Under the pieces are notes generated by a model, which was not told the DNA's origin, did no database searches, and saw only the letters and a list, made by a program, of their open reading frames with translations. Source: Diphasiastrum complanatum (taxonomy: Eukaryota; Streptophyta; Lycopodiopsida; Lycopodiales; Lycopodiaceae). Taken from it: a stretch of 64,000 nt of DNA. Positions 2,255 through 62,330 of this stretch are shown in pieces. Every line of letters begins with the position of its first letter. Position 1 is the stretch's first letter. The DNA is taken from contig CM055108.1 in the NCBI GenBank assembly GCA_029204225.1, forward strand, positions 11,625,782 through 11,689,781, given 5' to 3'. A program made the translations under genes and the position numbers.

Positions 2255-3676
2255 GTCCAGAGATGTTGGATCTTAATGGATGTTGTGACTACAACCTAGA
2301 TTTGACAAGATCTGATCAGTTCAGTCGGCTAATAGTGTGATTTTAGCCATTTTCATTGGTTTTTTTCAGATATCTATCTGATCCTAGCTTTGATTGGTCT
2401 AAAATTTTCACAATAGACAAATTTGAGGTCGATCTTGCTATTGATCATATCTGTGAAAGTTACTCAATGTGAGGGTTGGTCATGCAAGAGTTCTTTGTAC
2501 TGTTTTGTAGCTAAAAAACTAGATTTCTTGCAATCTACTGGGAACTAACTCTCAACCTTTTAACAATAGCTAGACCTAGTTCAAATCTAACTTATATCAA
2601 TCCTGCAAAGGTTCTTTCCTAGTGGTGCGAGATTTTTTTATGTTTGCGGCAAGTTCTTTAGGTTGTTTTTAAGTAAAAACTCTGATTTTTTTAGATCTAT
2701 TGGGAAGTAACTTTTGTAGACTTCACAAGAGCTGGATCTGATGTGGATCTAACTATGGAAAAGCTTACTAGAGTTAGCTCTTGTAGATAATAAAAATTTC
2801 ACTGTCTGCGAGGGTTCTGGAACACTTTTTTGGCTCAGATTTTTACCAATATCTCAAACTAACTCTCGCAGACTTTACCACTTATGGAAAATGATATTTT
2901 AAAAACAATGGGATGATCTGCGAAGGTTACTTCTCAGTGGTGCGAGAGTTATTGATGTCTATGAGGGTTCGCTCAAAATCACTTTTTGGCTCACAGATTA
3001 ATCAATAATTTAAACTAACTTTCGAAGGCTCTTCTGTGTCCTTGTCTCAGTGAGATGGAACTTCAGAAGATTTTGCGAAGGCTAGTTCCCACAAAAATTT
3101 GAAATTTTGATGTTTGTGAGGGTTTTGTCTTAGATTTTGCTATTCTGGATCTTGGGAACCTTCATAGATGGTCTCTACAAAGGTTACTTAGTAGTATTTT
3201 TTTAAATTTTTATGGTTTTTTCCAAATTTTTGGTTGTTTTTTTGGCTATTTTGGCAAAATGACTGGGAACTAACTCTCGTAGGAAGTACAATAGTTTCTG
3301 CTGATGTACAAGAAGGTACTGCCAGATTTGCAAAGGTTAGTTTGGACAGATCTGACAATTATGGCCTCTAGCCTATTTTCTCGCCTATTTTTTCCGCCAA
3401 AAATAGATTTTAAATATTTTTGAATTTTTTGGATTTTTGGAATGGATTGGGTGTTTGGAACTAATCCTCCCACCACACAATCTCTTCCTATAGTACATAC
3501 AAACAAAAAATCACAAAAAAATGACAAAAACTAACACTAATCCATGCTAAACTACCCCAAAATTCTGACTTTTAGGTGAAAATGACGCATATGAGAGAAA
3601 AGAGAGAGAGAGAGAAGAAGAAGAAGAGAGTGTGAGAAGAAAAAGAAGGTTATGCGGCGAGGCGAGTGTGTGGCGC
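2255..3676 (-). mobile_element. Leader (5' untranslated region) of minus-strand gag-only element A'
   Basis: Bases about 2255-2370 are the near-exact reverse complement of about 5640-5790 in the leader of element A, including 'gatttgacaagatctgatc'. Reading on the minus strand from the primer site at 3694 down to 2255, the order of blocks matches A. The stretch between is full of short copies of ctcgcag/ctgcgag motifs, like the other leaders in the window. No credible gene is present. The gag that should follow is missing, because the sequence runs into the LTR at 1479-2240. Confidence 0.6.
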
Positions 3677-3694
3677 TCCCCGGCAATGACACCA
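3677..3694 (-). promoter_or_regulatory. Primer-binding site of element A' (tRNA-Asp-like)
   Basis: On the minus strand this reads TGGTGTCATTGCCGGGGA. It differs from a typical plant Gypsy tRNA-Asp site (TGGCGCCGTTGCCGGGGA) at three positions, all transitions consistent with methylated-CpG decay. It follows the LTR end within two bases, which fixes the 3' end of LTR family A. Confidence 0.7.
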
Positions 3695-3695
3695 C

Positions 3696-4109
<414 letters not shown>

Positions 4110-4566
4110 TGTTGTGGGTATTTCATGTATACAAATAAATAGTGGGTTCCACCACTTAAAATACTGTTGGCCAAGCCTTGCCTAGTGGGCCCCGCCACAG
4201 TACAGTAGAATAATAAGTGCAAGGCACTGGCATCCTGTGTGTATAAGCCCAGCCACCAATGAGCACAAGTAGCAAGTTGTAATTCCTAGGAATAAGAGAC
4301 TAGGGGCTTAAAACTCTAAAATGACATTAGAGGCCCTAAGGCAAGTTGCAAATAAAAAAGCTAAAAGGGCCCAGCTTAAAACTCACATGAATCATGTGAG
4401 TGCCCTTGTGCTTTCTTAGCATCATTAGATTTAAGTTGTGTTTCTTTGAAAGGCTTTGATTAGAATCCTTGTCCCAATGAAGTGGCCAATGAGAGTAAAG
4501 GAGGCTCACCTCTAAAATCTATAAGAGGGAGTCATTTCCTTTGTATTGTATCATCTTCCATACTCA
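4110..4566 (+). mobile_element. 5' LTR of element A, shortened
   Basis: It is nearly collinear with 20453-20910: both contain 'ggcatcctgtgtgtataagccc' and 'gccaatgagagtaaagga'. It then breaks at about 4566 into the leader and lacks the CT tract and the distal half present in the 3' LTR. Bases 4381-4400 hold the palindrome 'cacatgaatcatgtg'. The missing part, with the primer site, was presumably deleted after insertion. Confidence 0.8.
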
Positions 4567-4570
4567 TCCC

Positions 4571-5450
4571 CTGCAAAGATTAGTTCCCAGAAAATCTCAA
4601 ATTTTGGCCAAAAACCACAAAAAAATGCAGTTTTTTAAAGATTTTTTGAGTTTCCTTGGGAAGTAACTCTTGTAGCTTGGTGAGCAAGTGAATCTAACTG
4701 AGATACAAGTGCATTCCAGTCTGCAAGGGTTTGTTCCCAGAAAATCCTAAAATTTTGCAAAAAAACCCCAAACAAATGCACTTTTTTCAAGATTTTTTGA
4801 GTTTCCTAGGGAAGTAACTCTCGCAGCTTGGTGAGCAGGTAAATCTCACTGAGATACAAGTGCATGCTAGTTTGCAAGGGTTTGTTCCCAGAAAATCTTA
4901 AATTTTTGAATAAAAACCCCAAAAAATGCACTTTTTTCAAAATTTTTTGAGTTTCCTAGGGAAGTAACTCTCGCAGCTAGGTGACCAGCTGAATCTGACT
5001 GAGATACAAGTGCATACTAGTTTGCAAGGGTTTGTTTCCAGAAAATCTTAAAATTTTGCAAAAAAACCCCACAAAAAAATGCACTTTTTTCAAGATTTTT
5101 TGAGTTTCCTTGGGAAGTAACTCTTGCAGCTGAATCTGACTGAGATACAAGTGCATACCACTCTGCGAGGGCTTGTTCCCAAAAAATCTTAAAATTTTGC
5201 AAGAAAATCAGAAAAAAAATGCACTTTTTTCAAGATTTTTTGAGTTTCCTTGAGAAGTAACTCTCGCAGCTTGGTGAGCAGTTGAATCTGACAAGTGCAT
5301 ACCAGTCTGCGAGGGTTTTTTCTCAGAAAATGTTAAAATTTTGCAAAAAGACCCCATAAAAATGCACTTTCTCCATGATTTTTTGAGATTTGCTGGTAAG
5401 TAACCTTTGCAAAGAGTTTGTTAGATAGATCTAACCAAGATCTGGCTACT
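4571..5450 (+). repeat. Six tandem ~145-150 bp repeats in the leader of element A
   Basis: Units start at about 4571, 4721, 4872, 5022, 5163 and 5307, each at 'ctgcaagg/ctgcgagg...ttgttcccagaaaatc'. They run through 'ttttgcaaaaa', an A/C-rich block, 'atgcacttttttcaagattt', 'gggaagtaactctcgcagc' and 'gagatacaagtgcat'. Each unit holds one ctgcgag-type and one ctcgcag-type heptamer, so the motif occurs in both orientations at regular spacing. There is no coding potential. Confidence 0.85.
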
Positions 5451-50500: not shown

Positions 50501-52013
50501 AGGTGATCCAGCGTGAACATTAGAGGAGTTACAAACATCAAAAGGGCCATCTAAGAAATGCCACGTAGGACAAAAAAAAACGCCGGATTTTAAGACTCCG
50601 ACGGACTTTCAGGTCCAGTTTAGCTTAACCTTACTAGTGATGTGTAGTTAACATGACACGATTATGACGTATGCAACTGTGACTTCAAGAACCTATGACG
50701 CTCATTAACTAGCTTTTTCAAATTTGAAAATGAGATTGTGTCCCTCGTTTTAACTAGCGAGAGAATAAACATAGAATCTCATGGATGAATAATAGTGTCT
50801 ATTTTCTTTTTGGTCTGTCATCTGATGTTTGCGGAGATATATCAGTTTCATCTAAACATTGTTCTCCTTGTCGATGATGCTCTGATAGCTAAAAGAGGAG
50901 TAGTGAAAGAATCCACAATTTCTCCACTTGATATGATCGCTCACAGAATCAATGTCTACAGATCCCCTGCTCCAGAGGACCTGTTGTTTACTTTTTTGCT
51001 TCTTGCTTACAGAACCGTTTCTTGATTTATTTTACGATGCCAACCCAGGCAGAAGAAAATAAAGTTTTGTTGTAGTATTTTCTTTATGTCCTGCCTGTAA
51101 GAGGACAACTCAGAGATGTCACTCTTGAACGCACTTACATTCTACATGGATGCAAGCCAAGAACGCTCATTCACAGATCAACATACAAACCAATGAACGT
51201 TCTACGAAGTCTACAGCTACCTACACTTAAAACGAACTGAAATCAGAGCCTACACTACATTAACAATGAACTACCTTGCATAAATTGACAAAACAAGAAA
51301 CAAGAAACTAATCTACAACATGTTAGAAGTCCAAGAATCAAGAAACCAACCAACCTTTTGATTCTTGGACATCCCAAGAACATCAAGAACTGGATTGTAC
51401 AGAGATATGCAAGAATCACACCACAGATCCAGCCTATTTAGTTTACTTGAATGCTGGCTCCTACATTAATCCACAAGGAAACAAGAAATCTAATCCACAA
51501 CTAGGAAAGCAAGAAAACTAATCCACTCTAAATCCACAACCACACACAATATGAATGGAAGGGCATGATCATAGGGGCATCACTCAAGAAAACCATTATG
51601 ATCAAGGAGCTTAGTGTAGCATCAAACTCATGGAAAATCTTCTTATTAGGCATGGAGTAGATACAATGCAAAAAGCTCCTCTTCACAAAGAGGGAGTCTC
51701 TTAAATAAGCAAGAGAGCTCCTTAGGTGGCATCCTAGTGGAATATCCACATTTCACAAATTACAAGTGGAATATTGCTCTCCACTAGAGGTCACCATCAA
51801 AAGGTAGCTCACTCTACTTTCTTTAAGAGTCTACTTGCATTTATTACATTTGCTTAGAAATACTAGTTCCTACATGGTCATTCCACCTTTTGGGATTCAC
51901 CATGTGGCTTACACAGTTCTTGCATGTCTTTTCCTAGCTAGTATTTCTCGGCTCTCATACTCGGCTCTCAGTCTTCATTAGTCTCATCTTCTCAGAGACC
52001 TCCTCGGTCTAAG
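50501..52013. other. Region without recognised gene
   Basis: No retroelement motif. One frame at 50795-51025 (76 codons) is not convincing. A perfect 13-bp hairpin is at 51329-51370. 51430-51780 looks like promoter or LTR-type sequence (minus-strand TATA-like 'tatttaagagactccc' near 51706) but has no partner copy here. Confidence 0.4.
51329..51370. repeat. Hairpin with perfect 13-bp stem
   Basis: 'gtccaagaatcaa' at 51329-51341 and its exact reverse complement 'ttgattcttggac' at 51358-51370 are separated by 16 bases. It could be a transcript hairpin or a remnant of a small foldback. Confidence 0.8.
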
Positions 52014-52592: not shown

Positions 52593-52628
52593 CAGTTTAG
52601 TTTTGTGAAGTAGCCTGACATTTATTAT

Positions 52629-54222
52629 GTGTCCTATTTGGGTTTTTTGATTTTCATAATCATTTGCAAATCAGCATTGGTTGCAAATGAGTATCTGAAG
52701 GACAATGACCTGATCGGAAAATCACTGAGTTCGGTATTGACAACCAAGTCCACAAAGTCTTTACTGGACAATAATCGGTATTCTCGAATCAAGTCCAAGG
52801 TCACCGAGAATTTGATGAACGACGTTAGTAAGGTAATCGATCGAACGTTAATTCAGGGAGCATGTGATTTCTTAGGTATTAGAAGGGAGGCATATGCCAA
52901 TATATTTAAAATTATTAAAGAGGCTTTTGGACAATTGCATGTAAGAAAATTTTCCATTCCTTGCCCTTTTCAGATAAGATTGGAGAGAGATGTATTGAAT
53001 AAGGGTATGCAAAATGTCATTGGAATCCCTTTTCACATCAATGAGATTCACAATTCAAAGTTTGGCAATTTGTCATATAATTCTACCAACAACTTATTTG
53101 TGGATTTGAATCATTTATTGAGATTTATAGTGAAATTCTATAATATTACAAGTGTTAGTATGAGCAAACTTATTCTGGTGGTCAAGCTAGATGAATCGGA
53201 AGTTATAAAAGGACAAAAGTTGGAAAGAGTAAGTATTACTCTCATGAATGAAGCATTGAGCAATGCAACAAACTCAAGGGATCTCAACTTCAGTGTGCAA
53301 TCAGAAAACAACATATGGTGGCTAGCATGTTTTCAGGTAAAAAATGGCTGTTATTCATGTGCAATTTCTTTTGGTAATTGTTTTGAATACATAAAAACTT
53401 GTGATCCATATGTTGAACAGGATCACGATGTTCTTTCCTGGATTTTTAGCAGAACAAGTTATCCAGATATCATAAAGGATGATATGAATGGCAAAGTACT
53501 TAGTGTTCCTGAAAAGTGTGAATTTTTGGTGGAATGACATTTAGCTGAAGTCATTGAAATGTATGTTCAATGTATCTCATGGAGCAAATTCGAAACATCC
53601 ATGTCTATATTGTATGAAATCATCAAATGACATTTCAAGGAACACAAGAGTTTTAAGAGATATTGAAGATCCCAACTGGAAACCAGTACTACCAATCCCT
53701 TTACAAAATGTGCATATTTGCACACTTCATGGAGAGGTGAGGATCATAGAAAAATTAATATATCTTCATATCTTGTTTGCATGGAATACTAAGCCAGAGT
53801 TAGCATCAAAACAAGCAATTGCTCAATTAGAGGACGTGTTGTCAAAAGCAGGCCTCCATAAAGGCCATGTTAAAATACAAAAAGATGAAAAGCTTTTGGG
53901 AAAAACAGGAAACATACGCAATAAACCTAGCATAGGAGGAGTCAAAATCATGGCCATCAAGGCCCTATCTTATTTTGCCCAAGGGCATAAATACCCAAAA
54001 AATACATATAGAATCATTTTTGTCAAAAGAGATGTTGCTCTTAAAGTGTTTAATTACGTGCCAAAAAATGTTCCTATGAGATCCTTTGCTCTGGCAATTC
54101 TATCAGGATATATAGATTTGAGCAAAAGGCAATCCACTCGATTTTTGACTCCGTATGATAAGAAAAAATTCCTTCATGACCACACAACAAAAATTGTCCT
54201 TAGAGACAATGAAAAAAAATGA
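52629..54222 (+). pseudogene. Transposase-like protein, unknown family, frameshifted
   Basis: Frame 1 (52629-53537, 302 codons) has 'LILVVKLDESEVIKGQKLER' (an acidic residue on a predicted strand) and 'EQDHDVLSWIFSRTSYPDII'. It ends 'EFLVE' at a TGA. Frame 2 (53554-54222) continues the protein: 'KCMFNVSHGANSKHPCLYCM' (a CxxC after HP), 'VHICTLHGEVRIIEKLIYLH' and 'GLHKGHVKIQKD'. Acidic motif, CxxC pair, HxE and a long helical region resemble uncharacterised transposase-like proteins of eukaryotes, but I cannot name the superfamily. At least one stop and one frameshift (53535-53552) break it. It is free of retroviral motifs. Confidence 0.5.
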
Positions 54223-54590
54223 TTGTACTCTTTTTCATTTAATGTATGTGAAATTTGAGAGTTTTTTATCACACGTGTTTGATCTTTATTGAATGCCATC
54301 AATCTAATTTTGGCAATAAATTTACATGCTTTTTTGAATCTTTGATATTCAGTTGATCTTGTTGTGTATCGAACTTGAGCTCGTCTATAAAACCATTGGA
54401 ATAGCTGAATGATGTAACTATTTTTTGAGGATGTTCCACCATGTTGCGTATTTCGATGAAATGCTGCTCTTGCCTGCCAATGTGATTTCTCCATTCCTTG
54501 TGAAGACCATATACTCAAACTGCCATACTTTTTTGCAAAAAATGATGCATGATGCCTTAGTATGTGCTGCAATATCAAAGATTTATGCAT
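54174..54590 (-). pseudogene. C-terminal piece of a transposase-like protein, opposite strand
   Basis: The minus-strand frame (138 codons) contains 'AKKYGSLSIWSSQGMEKSHW' followed by 'QARAAFHRNTQHGG' and 'QLFQWFYRRAQVRY'. This looks like the conserved C-terminal helix block of large transposase-like proteins. It is tail to tail with 52629-54222 and overlaps its last 49 bases. It could be the inverted end of the same gene or the last exon of a second gene running from about 55.4 kb. Function by resemblance only. Confidence 0.5.
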
Positions 54591-55370
54591 TGGTTAGAAT
54601 CTATCAAGCAAGTTATACTAAAATTATAAAATTTTAAGACACTGTTCAAATGTATCTTACCATATAGTGGGTGATGTGATCTGAGCCCCAAGCCACCCGA
54701 ACTGCATCTACAAACTCTATTGTTGTGCACTTCAATCATATTATCGAACTTTTTTCAAACTTCAACCTTCTTTACCCTTGTTGTTCCTTTATCTTCAAAG
54801 TCTTCTGTCATAGAAATAACATCTTTCCAAACCGAATATTGGATCTTAGATGACTCTTTAGAATGATTTGATAAAAATCGACGATAAAGTTTCTACATTT
54901 ACAAAAAACCTTTCATGAAGAACACAAATTTTGTTATTTAAAAAATGTCTCAAATAATGAGCCAATGAGGCATCCTTCTGTCTCCCGCCTTGTCTCTCTC
55001 TCAATCCTCCATGCCTGCTAGCAAAGGCATCAACTTCAACGATATCCTACAACACATAATCAAGTGTTAGTCAAACTAGCAGATCAATCATCAATTACAC
55101 GTTAAATAATGAATGATTTTCGTGAGAAGGTGTACTTACCAAATCCTCCTCGTCAGCTTGGATCATACCAGCAGCATCTAGATTGTGACCAGCAATAATG
55201 GTGGATTGCTGGTTAGCTGGAATAGTATATGTGGGAGGTGGCGGATACTTTTTCTGAAAAGCCAAAAACTCCTCCTCACTAGGCATATTAGCCTCACGCT
55301 TACCTCGTTTATGTCCCCTTGCTAACCGGCGCGTCATATTGATATGGCCTCCTCGTCTGCTAGTTTGATC
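54591..55370 (-). pseudogene. Upstream exons of the minus-strand transposase-like gene
   Basis: The minus-strand frame from 55337 reads 'TRRLARGHKRGKREANMPSE' (a basic block) and 'FLAFQKKYPPPPTYTIPANQ'. It reaches a good donor: G|GTAAGT at about 55140-55146. After a 90-base intron with acceptor ...TTGTGTTGTAG (near 55048), 'DIVEVDAFASRHGGLRERQG' and 'DASLAHYLRHFLNNKICVLH' follow before stops. These may lead to the 54174-54590 exon. Family not recognised; gene model tentative. Confidence 0.4.
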
Positions 55371-55588
55371 TATGATAAACTCTTAGTTCTTTCCCAGTTG
55401 ATGCTGAGGTTAGCGACAGACAAGCCCATTTTTTGTCCTATTTCGATTTTCAGTTTGACATAGAGAGATTTGTTATTGAGCACAAGAAATTTTTTTCTAA
55501 ACTGTAAAAGGATTTTTATGAGTGCTTGCAACAAGGTACCCTTCTGATGGACGGCTTGAGATTTGTGCATTTCACAGATTTGGCTCAC
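55371..55588. other. Divergent intergenic stretch
   Basis: A plus-strand ATG at 55344 ('MASSSASLIYDKLLVLSQLM') lies within a few bases of the minus-strand start at 55337. Its frame stops at 55461. It could be the start of another decayed gene. Its first residues recall the 'MASSS' start at 50464. Confidence 0.3.
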
Positions 55589-56313: not shown

Positions 56314-56694
56314 ATGGCCCGTACCAAGCAGACAGCTTGCCTTACCACATTTGCCCCGCCTCCTCACCCTCCTCTACAAAGGGCAGTGGGAACTGGTAGG
56401 AGAGTAGGTCGGCCCAGAAGACCATGGTTAAGGGATATCAGGAGACTTCAGAGGACCACAAATCTTCTGATTCCCCGTGCTCCTTTCTACAGGTCTGTGA
56501 GACTGGTAACAAGGTCCTTCTCACATGATGTTCGCTGGAACATAACAGTCCTGGAAGCCCTCCATACTACCTATGAGGACTTCCAAGTCAAATTCTTTGA
56601 GGACTCCATGCTTTGTACAGTGCACGCTAAGAGGGTAACCCTCATGCCTCAGGACATGCATCTTGTCATGAGGCTGAGGAGTACATACGATTAA
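56314..56694 (+). CDS. Divergent histone H3-like protein
   Basis: A 126-residue frame from ATG 56314 to TAA 56692-56694. Residues 1-8 'MARTKQTA' equal the H3 N-terminus including the R2 and K4 positions; then the tail is Pro-rich and lacks the K9/K27 contexts. From about residue 39 the histone fold is clear: αN/α1 'LRDIRRLQRTTNLLIPRAPF', loop 1 'FSHDVRW', α2 'VLEALHTTYEDFQVKFFEDS' and 'MLCTVHAKRVTLMPQD', end 'LVMRLRSTYD'. By eye about 40% of the fold matches canonical H3, with no gaps and a stop at the H3 C-terminus. 'TTNLLIP', the loop-1 W and 'SMLC' recall plant CENH3, but loop 1 has H3 length. It would be a nucleosome component if expressed. Past the TAA the frame continues open towards a Ulp1-like protease. 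It may be an independent gene or the N-terminal part of a fusion. Confidence 0.75.
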   Translation: MARTKQTACLTTFAPPPHPPLQRAVGTGRRVGRPRRPWLRDIRRLQRTTNLLIPRAPFYRSVRLVTRSFSHDVRWNITVLEALHTTYEDFQVKFFEDSMLCTVHAKRVTLMPQDMHLVMRLRSTYD

Positions 56695-58138
56695 GTCTTT
56701 AAGAGTGGCTTCACTTCTAGGTCACCACCTATAGAGAGAGGTCTTGTTCCTCAACGAAGAAGGAAGTAGACCAAGCCCACTAGGCCTGCCAAGCAAAGGG
56801 TGGTACTCAGCGAGTCACCATCCCCCCCTCACATCTCTCGTCCTTTGGTTGGACCATCACACCAGTCTGCAGTGCTTTCTTCTCCTCCCACCACCCCTAA
56901 CTATTCAAGTAGTTCCTCTTCCATTCCCTCCATTCCATCTCACAATAATGAGGATATGAACTCAACTGTAGATAACATAATATCAGATCTAGATTTAAGT
57001 TTAATAGGCGATTTTTATAAGGATCTTTGTGTAAGATTTCCTGTTGATCCCAAAGATTCATTTTTGGATTTTTAGAGGTATATAATTTTTGATGAGTATG
57101 TTGCCAAAGAAATTGACAAGCTAGGTGGTCAATTTTCTTTTTTTCTAAGTTCAATTAATTATATAAATCACATAAATAAAGACTTTTGTGATGCCCTGAA
57201 GGAGAAGACCTCAGATATATCAGATCCAGTTGTGGAGGCTGGTTTGATGTATTTTGTAAATAGATGTCATGCGATGATACTAAGGACATTGGAGTTGTGC
57301 TGTCCTTTTTCTCACACAGCCTTCATAGTCCAACTAAGGCGATGAAGTATCTTCTCCATACAACCTTGGAGACCAAAGTCTTTATTATTCCATACTGCCA
57401 AAAGTAAGTGATTACATAGAATATATTCTAGTAATATTTTTAATAGGTATTGTAATTCCTTTAGTTTAACTAATTATCTCTTGTTTGCAGTAAGCATTGG
57501 AGTATGCATATAATCTCCCTTAGGGAAGATTCATATGGGATCATTAATCCCATCTGTTTAAAGATGAACTCCTTAAAGTCTACCCATGCCGAAATGGACG
57601 TGATGTACAGCAGAATGTTGCCATTTTTGCCAAGGCCGGATGGGGCCACTTTAAATAGACACCTGGAGATTGTTGATGTAGAAGTAAGTATTTCTCATCA
57701 AGTATTTGATAGGTAATATGATCTGTTTTTTTCAGAGTGCATAACTAACCTATTATACGTTTTGTGATTGAAGTCAACTCAACAAGAGGATGGACATAGT
57801 TGTAGATGGTTCTCCATCCGCAATGTATAGGACTTTTTAGAGTGGTACATCATGCAATCCAGGGCTCCAGATATACGAAAGGTAAATAGACTAGTGAATG
57901 GCCTAACTAAGTTGTTTTCGATTTGGTTTTTGATAAGTCAATTGACTCGGTTCTTTTGGATTTGCAGTATAAATGTTGAGCATTTTCAATGAATGAGATA
58001 TATGAGTTTCGTCAACAGATGTTGGTGAACTTATTATCTCATGCAACACCCAGTCCAGCTGCAGAAACGGGAGGCCAATCAAGTCAACAACTGACACTAG
58101 TGCAGGGTGGAAATTATCCATACTACTTTGAGCTATAA
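56695..58138 (+). pseudogene. Ulp1/SENP-type (C48) cysteine protease gene, four exons, in phase with the H3-like frame
   Basis: Exon 1 continues the H3 frame to 57403: a basic, Ser/Pro-rich linker, then a helical region 'LIGDFYKDLCVRFPVDPKDS'. There is a probable one-base shift near 57270, before 'DDTKDIGVVLSFFSHSLHSP' and 'ETKVFIIPYCQ'. Introns with GT-AG ends are 57404-57490, 57684-57773 and 57882-57967, and the exons join in frame. Exon 2 (57491-57683) starts 'KHWSMHIISLRED' with the catalytic His. Exon 3 (57774-57881) has 'QQEDGHSCRWFSI', matching the Q-x5-C active-site block with the usual following G replaced by R. Exon 4 (57968-58138) ends 'GGNYPYYFEL'. In-phase stops: TAG 56767, TAG 57073, TAG 57828 and TGA 57977. 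Such proteases remove SUMO-like tags and are often carried by plant DNA transposons. The copy is probably dead. Confidence 0.6.
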
Positions 58139-58299: not shown

Positions 58300-58960
58300 T
58301 TTTACAAATCTTGTATCATGATTGCTCTATTATCTGAACAATTCTGTCCAAATCTTTGCATTTGATTTTCTCTTCATGTCTTTTACGTATATGCACAAAC
58401 ATACATTAATCAGATTACAGTTAGTGATCCAAATAATGACAAAAAGGATAATGAATATAAATTAATATACAAATTCATGGATTTTACATACCAATTTTCC
58501 ATCTAATATAAAGTTGAAATATTCGGGGATAACTTGCTGTAAAAGTGTCAGTTCCGTTCTAATGTAGAATAAGGTCCAGTCTTGCTCAACCTCAATAGTA
58601 GTAAGTAAATCCCCATTTGCCGTGATATCAATGCCTATACGATCAGTGTGTCCAATGTTGTCTAGATCTTGATCTAATGGGGCCCAAGTACCATTGTGTT
58701 CTTTCCATCTCTGATAATGAAACACCATACTAAGCATTTGCTTTTCTATATTGTATCTAAATGATATGGATGAAAGTTTGATTCTACAAGAAATATCTGC
58801 AGTGGATCTTATATCCCAACCTTTGTCCATGAATTTGAATAAAAAATCATCTGAAAGATTTTTGCAAACAAACAATGTGGGAGTTCGATGCACTTCCGTG
58901 TTTGAAAAAGAGCTGACAAACAATGACATTGGAACAAACCAGCTTAAGTGCACATTTTTG
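58300..58960 (-). pseudogene. Unknown gene convergent with the H3/Ulp1 gene, possibly two exons
   Basis: The minus-strand frame about 59019-58462 is open. It has 'HRTPTLFVCKNLSDDFLFKF', 'RWKEHNGTWAPLDQDLDNIG' and a C-terminal block 'DWTLFYIRTELTLLQQVIPE' followed by 'YFNFILDGKL', then a donor GTATGT (near 58490). A second exon near 58375-58312 may add 'HEEKIKCKDLDRIVQIIEQS' and a stop. The block around 'IR..L....P..F.F.LDGK' looks ubiquitin-like in pattern, but I do not recognise the family. The frame begins directly at the broken end of a gag-only fragment (59020), so the true start is lost. Confidence 0.4.
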
Positions 58961-59019
58961 GATCCTGTACTAGTTTTGAGTGACTTTTGTACATCATTAT
59001 ATAGCTTGGAACAAAAGCA

Positions 59020-59760: not shown

Positions 59761-60339
59761 CAAATAGCACAATTTGTAGAATTCAATCTCTCGTGTTTCA
59801 ATCAAATTAGATTTCTAATCCAACAAATGGACTTATAATCTCAGTTCTAGCACTCCCTCACAAATTTGGAATGAAGATAAGATGTTGTGAAATCTACTTA
59901 CAATCAAATCTTGCCAATTTTGGCTATTTTTGGACAATAACATGACTAAATCTCTTTCACACTTTTTGATGTACATTCAAGACTTGTAAAACAAGTTTAT
60001 AGGACCTTACTTCAGCCTAGATTAATTAGATCTCATGACCCTAAGTCAAATCTAATCAATGGCACTCAATCTTGGTAGCTTATCCTAAGATCTCCACCAA
60101 AAATTACATCAAAAGCTCACAAATTGAATTTATTTGGATCAAATGAATACCATGCATTAAATGCAGGTCTAGAGGTGCCCACACATGTGGACAGTACAGA
60201 TTTGGACCCCTACCAAGTTTGGGATCAAATCTCCTCACCAAAATCAAGAATCTAGCTTGCCCTCTCAATAGTAGTTTTTAGAACCAAAACTTGCTAAAAA
60301 TGGATTTTCATTAGATCAATGGCTTATGCTCTCGTACTT
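59761..60339 (-). other. Leader of Copia G
   Basis: AT-rich sequence upstream of a degenerate primer site, with no gene. It holds one 'cacacatgtggacag' motif near 60180. It probably is Copia leader truncated at about 59760. Confidence 0.45.
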
Positions 60340-60352
60340 GGCTCCGATGCCA
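60340..60352 (-). promoter_or_regulatory. Primer-binding site of Copia G, degenerate
   Basis: The minus strand reads TGGCATCGGAGCC where the canonical site is TGGTATCAGAGC. It directly adjoins the LTR. Confidence 0.65.
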
Positions 60353-60987
60353 TGTGAAAGTACTGTACTTTAGGACCATAAATTGATCTACAAAAGATCC
60401 ACAAGAGTGATTGGATGCTTGCTTAACAATCTATCAAAAAACTAGTCATCAAAAAGTTGATCTAGATTGGCAATTTGACAAACAACAAGCATTAACAATC
60501 AAAATCATTGATCAACATTGAAATCGGAGGCCACATGTGTGTACTATAGGCTGTAGTAAGGCCTTCAACCTGAGAAACACGTAGAAATTGATTTGGTTTC
60601 ATTTGGATCACAAAAACTCAATGTACATAGTGAACTAGCTTGAGATTGCCAATGAGCTCCAAAAAATATTCTATCTTCTCACTATGGGAGTTGGAATACA
60701 TAGCAAATTCGACTTCCTTCTTGAAGTTAGGTGGATTTCCAACATGTAATAAGGAAGTTAACTCACTCTTCTTGCCCTAAAATGAAACCCTAGCCTAGAT
60801 CCTTGAGTTATGCTTGGTAGGTAGCTAGTTGGTCAAATTTTCATCTTAAACCTAGGTGTAGGTCCTATAAAGTAGGGATGACCACCAAATAGACATGACC
60901 AACTCTCTTGACTTGACCTAACCTACATTAGGAGTGGGTTGCCATGTGGCATATTGGCCTTCCATGTGTGGAACCCAATTATTCACA
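60353..60987 (-). mobile_element. LTR of Copia G (5' LTR, minus strand)
   Basis: Minus-sense TGTGAATAATTGGG...GTACTTTCACA, 635 bp, with CACATGTGTG and CCATGTGTGG motifs as in other Copia LTRs here. No gag-pol or second LTR is found. The right flank is ATATT, but no partner duplication can be seen. Confidence 0.65.
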
Positions 60988-61225
60988 ATATTTACAAAGT
61001 TCTACATGGTTTTTGATCAAGCTAGATTTGCCAATTTCTGGCAATTCTTCACAATCCTGATGGGAATGACTTGGAGAAAAAGACAATCTTTCAATATAAA
61101 GTCGTACCTTATACCATTATTAACAATGTTCTGTATAATCTTGGTGTAGATCATCAGTTAAGAAGGTGTCTTGAAGCTAAAAAAACACCTCTGTTTCACA
61201 AGTCCAACCAGCATTCACTGCAGCC
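60988..61225 (+). other. Region upstream of the acidic coiled-coil ORF
   Basis: Short open stretches only ('TIFQYKVVPYTIINNVLYNL' in one frame near 61075-61140), possibly an earlier exon of the following ORF. Otherwise nothing recognised. Confidence 0.3.
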
Positions 61226-62330
61226 ATGGAGGTCGACACAACAGAAGTCCCGAAGGAAACAGAGTCGAATGTTGCTGCACAAAATATACCTGAGCCCTCT
61301 ACTGCAGCCGATACTTTGGCCATCGTCCTAGCTACAAACGGGTCTTCTGAGAAGCCAAAGAGCTCTGCATCCACGGATGGCGAAGACACCATCTCCGACA
61401 CGCAGATGCAAGACAAAGACAAAGGGGTTGATGAGGAGGCAACGAACGTGGATGAGGACGACAAAGAGAATTTGTACAGATGGTATCATCAATTTTTCTT
61501 GGGTGCCAAGGATATTGTTGGTAAAATCCATGTCTATGATCTGCACATCCAAGATAGCATGATGCAATTATTCCAACATACGGATGAGATGACCAGCAAC
61601 ATTAAAATGTTGCCTGAGAAGATTACATTTCTAGAGGCAGACAACAAGTTGTTGACTGAGCAAAATCGCTCTTTGGGCCGAATGCTCCAACAATTAATTG
61701 ACAAAGCCCAATCATACAAGGACAACAATAAGACACTAACGACCAAGTCTGCAGAATTGCAGACAAATTTTGATTCTTTGACAACTGAGCTTAATAAGGT
61801 CAACACACAAAAGACCACTCTACAAACCACTCTTCAAGACTACTAGGAGAATAAAGATAGAAACTGCCTTACAATTATGCAACAACTTTGGATCAATTCA
61901 GATTGATCTCTTGAAGCTGCAGTCTCTTCAGGACCAGATGCTCAAAAAATTTTGAGTTGAGTTTCTTTTTCCGCTCGAAAACAACAAAGTGTTAGTCGAA
62001 GAAGAACTCGCCGAGCTGAATGAACTATCCACCGAGACAACAATTTGTTCTGGGCTAGATGCACACGAGGAATATTTGTAAGCCCTAGAAAAGATTGAAG
62101 AATTGGCGAAGCAATTTCAAGCTACTCACAAATGTTCGGGAGTTGCTGATCACTTAGAGTATGTTGAAGCCTGCATCAAAATCTTTGACCTTCAAAAGGA
62201 AGTAGCAGATCTAAAACAATATCTCAAAGACTAGAAGCTCGCTGTAGACATCCACAGCCAGGACGTTGCAGAAGCATAGCCTAAGGCAAAACGACCGAGG
62301 AGAAATCAGACGAAGGTACATATGTGCAGA
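61226..62330 (+). pseudogene. Acidic and coiled-coil ORF remnant
   Basis: The frame 61226-61846 (206 codons) has an acidic Ser/Thr-rich N-terminus ('STDGEDTISDTQMQDKDKGV') and a long coiled coil ('ITFLEADNKLLTEQNRSLGR', 'ELQTNFDSLTTELNKVNTQK'). It stops at TAG 61844. Further helical pieces follow in shifted frames to about 62260 ('CIKIFDLQKEVADLKQYLKD') with TAG stops, ending in a basic 'KAKRPRRNQ'. The design matches 25.0-25.9 kb and 1-810: accessory coiled-coil proteins probably linked to Tat-type Gypsy elements. Function unknown. Confidence 0.45.

Follow-up and report, generated by a model that had tools for sequence, protein, structure and literature searches.

A transposon of Diphasiastrum complanatum encodes a single protein in which an H3 histone fold is followed by a basic linker and an Ulp1/C48-like domain, with the gene divided into four exons. 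We are nearly certain that this fusion is a real transposon gene. The copy at 56314-58138 of the window (the whole 64,000-nucleotide stretch of DNA that was analyzed, part of contig C17 of a 1.74-Gb genome) is an old, decayed one that cannot itself make the fusion protein, and copies of it were sought in the same genome. An earlier note, made from the letters of the window, had weighed a fusion protein of a mobile element against an H3-like gene that merely lies in phase with a protease gene. Our results support the fusion: one relative encodes an intact protein of 470 amino acids with both domains above their Pfam cut-offs, and 122 places in the genome align across the join between them.

The window copy has the histone fold and splice structure of the fusion gene and is interrupted by stops and a frame change. 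Exon 1 (56314..57403, plus strand; its end placed from homology and a GT splice site) begins with MARTKQTA at 56314, and an H3 histone fold lies within the first 126 codons, as the earlier note had read it. The open frame holding MARTKQTA matched the Pfam Histone model (PF00125) with 81.9 bits (E 5.9e-23), and the best stretch of this match spans 56380..56679 on the plus strand. The first in-frame stop, at 56692, had been counted against a fusion since it seemed to fall exactly at the normal H3 C-terminus. It does fall near that point, but the coding sequence of the family continues: the frames of two relatives, L017 and L024, are open at the positions aligned to this stop and to the next one at 56767. 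In the window itself the linker continues in the same frame past both stops, and a third stop lies at 57073. Exon 1 of the window copy also changes frame, at about 57280-57340. Further stops are present in exons 3 and 4.

The spliced His and Q-x5-C motifs of the earlier note could be read in the window. Three introns (57404-57490, 57684-57773, and 57882-57967) have GT-AG ends as read by eye, and the spliced exons carry KHW in exon 2 and QQEDGHSC, a Q-x5-C motif, in exon 3. Exon 2 (57491..57683, plus strand) is defined by alignment to exon 2 of L017 and by its AG/GT ends, and exon 3 (57774..57881, plus strand, with a stop at 57828) by alignment to exon 3 of L017. Exon 4 (57968..58138, plus strand), which holds the gene end and has a stop near its start, was placed by position and by analogy with exon 4 of L017, with no scored match. 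The profile search agreed with the proposed Ulp1/C48 identity in L017, but no scanned open piece of the window matched Peptidase_C48 in Pfam. We assign the window gene to C48 because the intact relative L017 matches C48 and exons 2-3 of the window align to L017 (28% identity). A predicted histone model of the window piece had a pLDDT of 56.6 and aligned loosely, and was left out of the case.

Relatives of the window gene are open across the join between the two domains. At least 153 places in the genome matched PF00125, the 13 best with 163.7 to 165 bits. Eight of these 13 (L001-L008) all had the tail MARTKQTARK, and the five printed in full were ordinary H3. From the lower-scoring H3-like places we fetched 27 with their flanks, 20 of which had been picked mainly because their open frames were long. 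Judged by sequence, 10 of the 27 were copies of the fusion (family A), one belonged to family B, and 16 belonged to family D, which has no C48. In the family A copy L017, four exons (3485-4467, 4575-4761, 4873-4977, and 5077-5214) with GT-AG ends and the exon structure of the window gene encode the 470 amino acids without a stop. In Pfam, residues 27-123 matched Histone (97.3 bits) and residues 316-442 matched Peptidase_C48 (42.2 bits, E 1.1e-10, with a curated cut-off of 20.7 bits). Two of the ten family A copies, L017 and L023, have neither a stop nor a gap over the 470 codons of L017.

We searched the genome with the 327-residue exon 1 protein, reading through stops and counting them, and scored 122 places among 9916 first-look candidates. 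The scored places were 84-100% identical to the query, and matches were found on every contig from C1 to C24. All 122 aligned from residues 1-10 to residues 311-327, across the histone-linker-C48 join, in one frame. Exon 1 was free of stops in 24 of them and had at least one stop in 98; as these places are the best-scoring candidates, the open share does not come from random sampling, and the count is a minimum. Copies lacking the stops at 56692 and 56767, for which the earlier note had suggested looking, do exist. Its other reading, two separate genes brought into phase by chance, draws on the position of the first stop of the window near the H3 C-terminus, but is contradicted by the single frame that all 122 places share over the join. 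Relatives are open through the join in that frame, and we give chance neighbors practically no credence.

Two fusion-type copies lie in a 4.3-kb stretch of L024 (3323-7617). The first of them, the family B copy, has a frame that takes in the histone fold and the linker and is uninterrupted to its end; Pfam found Histone and no C48 in this frame, which past the fold is 29% identical to L017 over 87 codons. After this copy come a terminal repeat (4588-4619), pieces of the transposase, and then the second fusion copy, which is the more divergent. The latter is 57-58% identical where aligned in exon 1 and has the fold, the start of C48, and exon 2 in the expected order, together with stops and a frame change.

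The fusion gene is carried by an element with terminal inverted repeats. The L037-L017 element is 8681 bp long, has perfect 35-bp inverted ends that begin CATTAG, and contains a transposase-like gene and two minus-strand genes in addition to the fusion gene. The flanks of the L017 copy, the sole copy with both ends read, lack a target-site duplication, and the left ends of five more family A copies were not found in the 700-base stretches fetched. The order in the window is that of family A: left end, transposase pieces at 52.6-54.9 kb, an ORF2 remnant, the fusion gene, and ORF4. The left terminal inverted repeat (50518..50580, plus strand) begins CATTAGAGGAGTT and over 63 bases shares 79% identity with the left end of the family A element; the 13-base end pattern is weak alone, with 2.5 chance matches expected in the window at up to 2 mismatches. 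The degraded 5' part of the transposase gene (52614..53946, plus strand) matched the family A transposase at the protein level, with relatives found by profile search, and the later part (54300..54877, minus strand), inverted in the window copy, matched positions 1839-2452 of the family A element. The ORF2 remnant, a minus-strand gene (55095..55382), is 34% identical over 50 amino acids to ORF2 of family A (E 3e-6), and ORF4 (58462..59019, minus strand) is 54% identical over 176 amino acids to its family A counterpart (E 1.7e-66). The right terminal repeat was not found within the window. Past ORF4, the stretch 59780-61900 has no match to the family A element, and another repeat there possibly removed the right end. 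A coiled-coil-like frame at 61181-61843 is below the Pfam cut-off.

The transposase has a predicted RAG1/Transib-like fold. The prediction was made for a relative, P0124, which is 10-15% identical to RAG1/Transib, and not for the broken gene of the window itself. A relative of the transposase was also found in Ceratopteris by profile search. Pfam transposase models, MULE included, had no match in the pieces scanned, an absence that does not exclude a family, and an IMG/VR scan with the transposase confirmed no relative.

The histone part of the window protein is H3-like and is not canonical H3. Its fold matched 179 PDB sequences at E <= 0.001, and the 60 best matches listed were all H3 (E 4e-23 to 8.8e-21, with H3.3 at 4.5e-23). 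Identity of the fold to host H3 was 53% for family A, 47% for family B, 43% for the window, and 52% for family D, and the folds of A, B, and the window were 51-60% identical to each other. In a tree of 51 rows, these last three formed one group of 14 rows with support of 99/95, in which the exact place of the window fold is unsure because its end branch is long; the family D folds formed a separate group. A further H3-like frame, MEEIKKYQKSTRLLLLRAPF, at L044:150-398 (C13:7458000-7458500), differs widely from host H3 as well as from the fusion type.

The tail diverges from that of H3 from position 9 onward, and a canonical tail with K9, K14, and K27 was not found. Tails matching our search pattern read MDRRKQTRRD at six loci, MDKRKQTRRD at one, MARTKQTARD at seven, MARTKQTARG at one, MARTESTARA at one, and MARTKQTACL in the window. 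Lysine 9 was present in none of these 17 transposon tails versus 8 of 8 host H3 loci, and lysine 4 was present in all of them except MARTESTARA. Family A tails outside the search pattern (L013, L018, L026, and L036) had D or G at position 9. The transposon tail thus keeps H3-like first eight residues without lysine 9, and so cannot carry the K9 methylation of silent chromatin.

Some features of the fold may resemble those of centromeric H3. Hallmarks of CENH3 are a longer loop 1 and no Gln68. Gln68 is absent from the representatives of A, B, D, and the window, all four of which have LIPRAPF, and these two features may recall plant CENH3. Together with the longer loop 1 of lineage A and the RAG1/Transib-like transposase in the same element, they could fit a targeting role in which the histone fold directs either the element or its transposase to specific chromatin (centromeric, for example, if the fold is derived from CENH3) and the C48 part acts on the transposase. 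We think such a role quite unlikely: loop 1 exceeds that of host H3, by one residue, in A only and is as long as in H3 in the representatives of B, D, and the window, and matches are present on all contigs from C1 to C24.

The histone part can exist without the C48 part, since the D lineage has kept an H3-like protein that lacks C48. Family D elements have open frames of up to 417 amino acids with a proline-rich middle and the H3 fold at the end. No C48 was seen by eye in the L020 frames after H3 or by Pfam in the L011 frame. Compared with family A, their transposase is 25-42% identical in the TP1 piece and 43-46% identical in the TP2 piece, and their ORF4 is 31% identical. Because D, with its related transposase, carries an H3-like protein too, such a protein may be a standing gene of this group of transposons. 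Family D loci include L010:3829-5079 (minus strand), L011:2949-4130 (plus strand), and 14 more, with the tail MARTKQTARD where readable and a long proline run. Separately, the metagenomic H3 proteins P0004, P0021, P0001, and P0043 (about 388-425 amino acids) have a long insert that separates the fold from an H3-like tail, and proteins of this type fall into many separate 90% clusters, as if multi-copy. A scan of viral_contigs (IMG/VR) with P0021 found no relative.

An excess of silent change indicates that both the histone fold and the C48 domain are kept by selection. Summed over pairs of the ten family A copies, pN/pS was 0.24 for the fold and 0.41 for C48, with values of 0.44 for the tail and 0.68 for the linker. 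A comparison of two sub-families gave silent:replacement counts of 18:4 for the fold (p 5.5e-8), 16:15 for C48 (p 0.002), 13:12 for the linker (p 0.009), and 7:2 for the tail, where replacements would be expected to make up 0.72-0.74 of the changes; under stricter counting, done first, the figures were 15:3, 13:15, 13:11, and 7:3, respectively. The copies used here had come from the search by H3 score and most had been picked for an open frame, which biases the H3 figures in favor of selection. The second L024 copy, chosen neither by H3 score nor for an open frame, had pN/pS of 0.39 in H3 and of 0.41 and 0.47 on the C48 side, with silent differences of 0.59-0.74 that are near saturation. The window copy compared with L017 gave 0.57-0.59, as expected after decay.

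These results bear on whether the fusion is a captured passenger sequence that the transposon carries without function. Passages of a review (PMC13317346) describe captured gene pieces as common in transposons, and most of the scored copies are broken (98 of 122 with at least one stop in exon 1). However, silent changes are in excess in both domains, and the same order is found in family A, the window, and the second L024 copy. We consider a functionless passenger very improbable.

The C48 part appears from its sequence to be an Ulp1-like domain and a putative protease. Against solved structures, the C48 part of L017 matched an Ulp1-like SUMO protease (6dg4, E 0.00099) and yeast Ulp1 (1euv, E 0.0014). 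Both L017 and the window have the His (in HW) and the Gln and Cys (in Q-x5-C). Opposite the catalytic Asp of Ulp1 (1euv), L017 has Lys and the window, by way of the family alignment, has Asn; this Asp is not conserved, and enzyme activity is therefore in doubt. The Lys and Asn, along with the constraint still acting on the domain, would fit a SUMO- or protein-binding module that is no protease, the fusion then being a scaffold by which the transposase, or some other partner, is held on chromatin. We judge this rather unlikely. The His and Q-x5-C in L017 and the window fit an enzyme, and Asn, which is the third catalytic residue in papain, could fill that role here.

The most likely function of the fusion, we infer, is that H3 mimicry brings a SUMO-protease-like module to chromatin and weakens silencing. 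The H3 fold would let the product join, or compete for, the partners of H3 (H4, histone chaperones, and nucleosomes), and the C48-like domain would thereby be brought to chromatin, where it would strip or bind SUMO on silencing factors; silencing of the element would be lowered and its spread aided. Entry into nucleosomes, cleavage of SUMO, and loss of silencing are all steps predicted for the fusion. A parallel comes from Vandal transposons whose VANC gene includes an Ulp1 domain: according to passages of the review cited above (PMC13317346), these transposons reduce the methylation of related elements. The logic of the fusion resembles that of the Ulp1-bearing VANC, which would favor an anti-silencing factor acting at nucleosomes. 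Our confidence in this anti-silencing mechanism is somewhat short of even; for the statement as a whole, that the fusion is a transposon gene and acts against silencing through mimicry of H3, we regard the case as evenly balanced.

A related reading starts from the H3-like protein as a standing gene: a histone variant of the transposon's own, without K9 and in or near the nucleosomes of the element, might tether the SUMO-protease-like domain so that the chromatin of the element resists silencing. We regard this as possible but doubtful. If anti-silencing through H3 mimicry is correct, then a genomic parasite would meet silencing by supplying a histone unable to carry the silencing mark. The fusion would also allow a direct test of whether SUMO on chromatin maintains the silencing of plant transposons, and would offer a natural means of directing a SUMO protease to nucleosomes.

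The fusion came up in this genome and in none of the protein database matches listed. The search with the exon 1 protein gave 357 H3 hits; among the 120 listed, none covered more than 41% of the query and none had C48. With the C48 region as query there were 724 candidates, of which none reached E <= 0.01, and an NCBIfam scan had nothing above cut-off. The earlier note knew of no described H3-Ulp1 fusion, and our searches of open-licence PMC papers, one of them for the exact phrase, likewise listed no histone-Ulp1 fusion. Transposons with chromatin genes are already known, but none known to us carries a core-histone fold that selection has maintained, or such a fold joined to a SUMO-protease-like domain.

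The carrier element resembles known groups in part. Transib elements have ends of CACWATG and a 5-bp target duplication, and EnSpm/CACTA elements have ends of CACTA/G; the ends here are CATTAG, with no duplication at the L017 copy. Compared with RAG1/Transib, identity is 10-15%, the ends are CATTAG rather than CAC, and there is no Pfam transposase match. Plant transposons gain a group with a predicted RAG1/Transib-like transposase fold. The H3 histone fold, H3-like N-terminus, and divergent tail are shared with plant CENH3 and other H3 variants, whereas here the fold is fused to C48, borne by a transposon, and has a loop 1 of H3 length in three of four lineage representatives. The KIU-type Vandal, a non-TIR MULE, is likewise a plant DNA transposon with a chromatin-acting factor joined to an Ulp1 domain and a presumed anti-silencing role, as described in passages of the review cited above (PMC13317346), the main text of which does not contain the words histone and fusion. 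In our element, by contrast, there are terminal inverted repeats, a transposase with a predicted RAG1/Transib-like fold and no MULE match in Pfam in the pieces scanned, and an H3 histone fold as the partner of the Ulp1-like domain. Finally, DNA transposons that carry TET/JBP or SET enzymes, described in passages of another paper (PMC12730594), also bring an epigenetic gene with them; there, the gene encodes a modifying enzyme, and here it encodes a histone fold.
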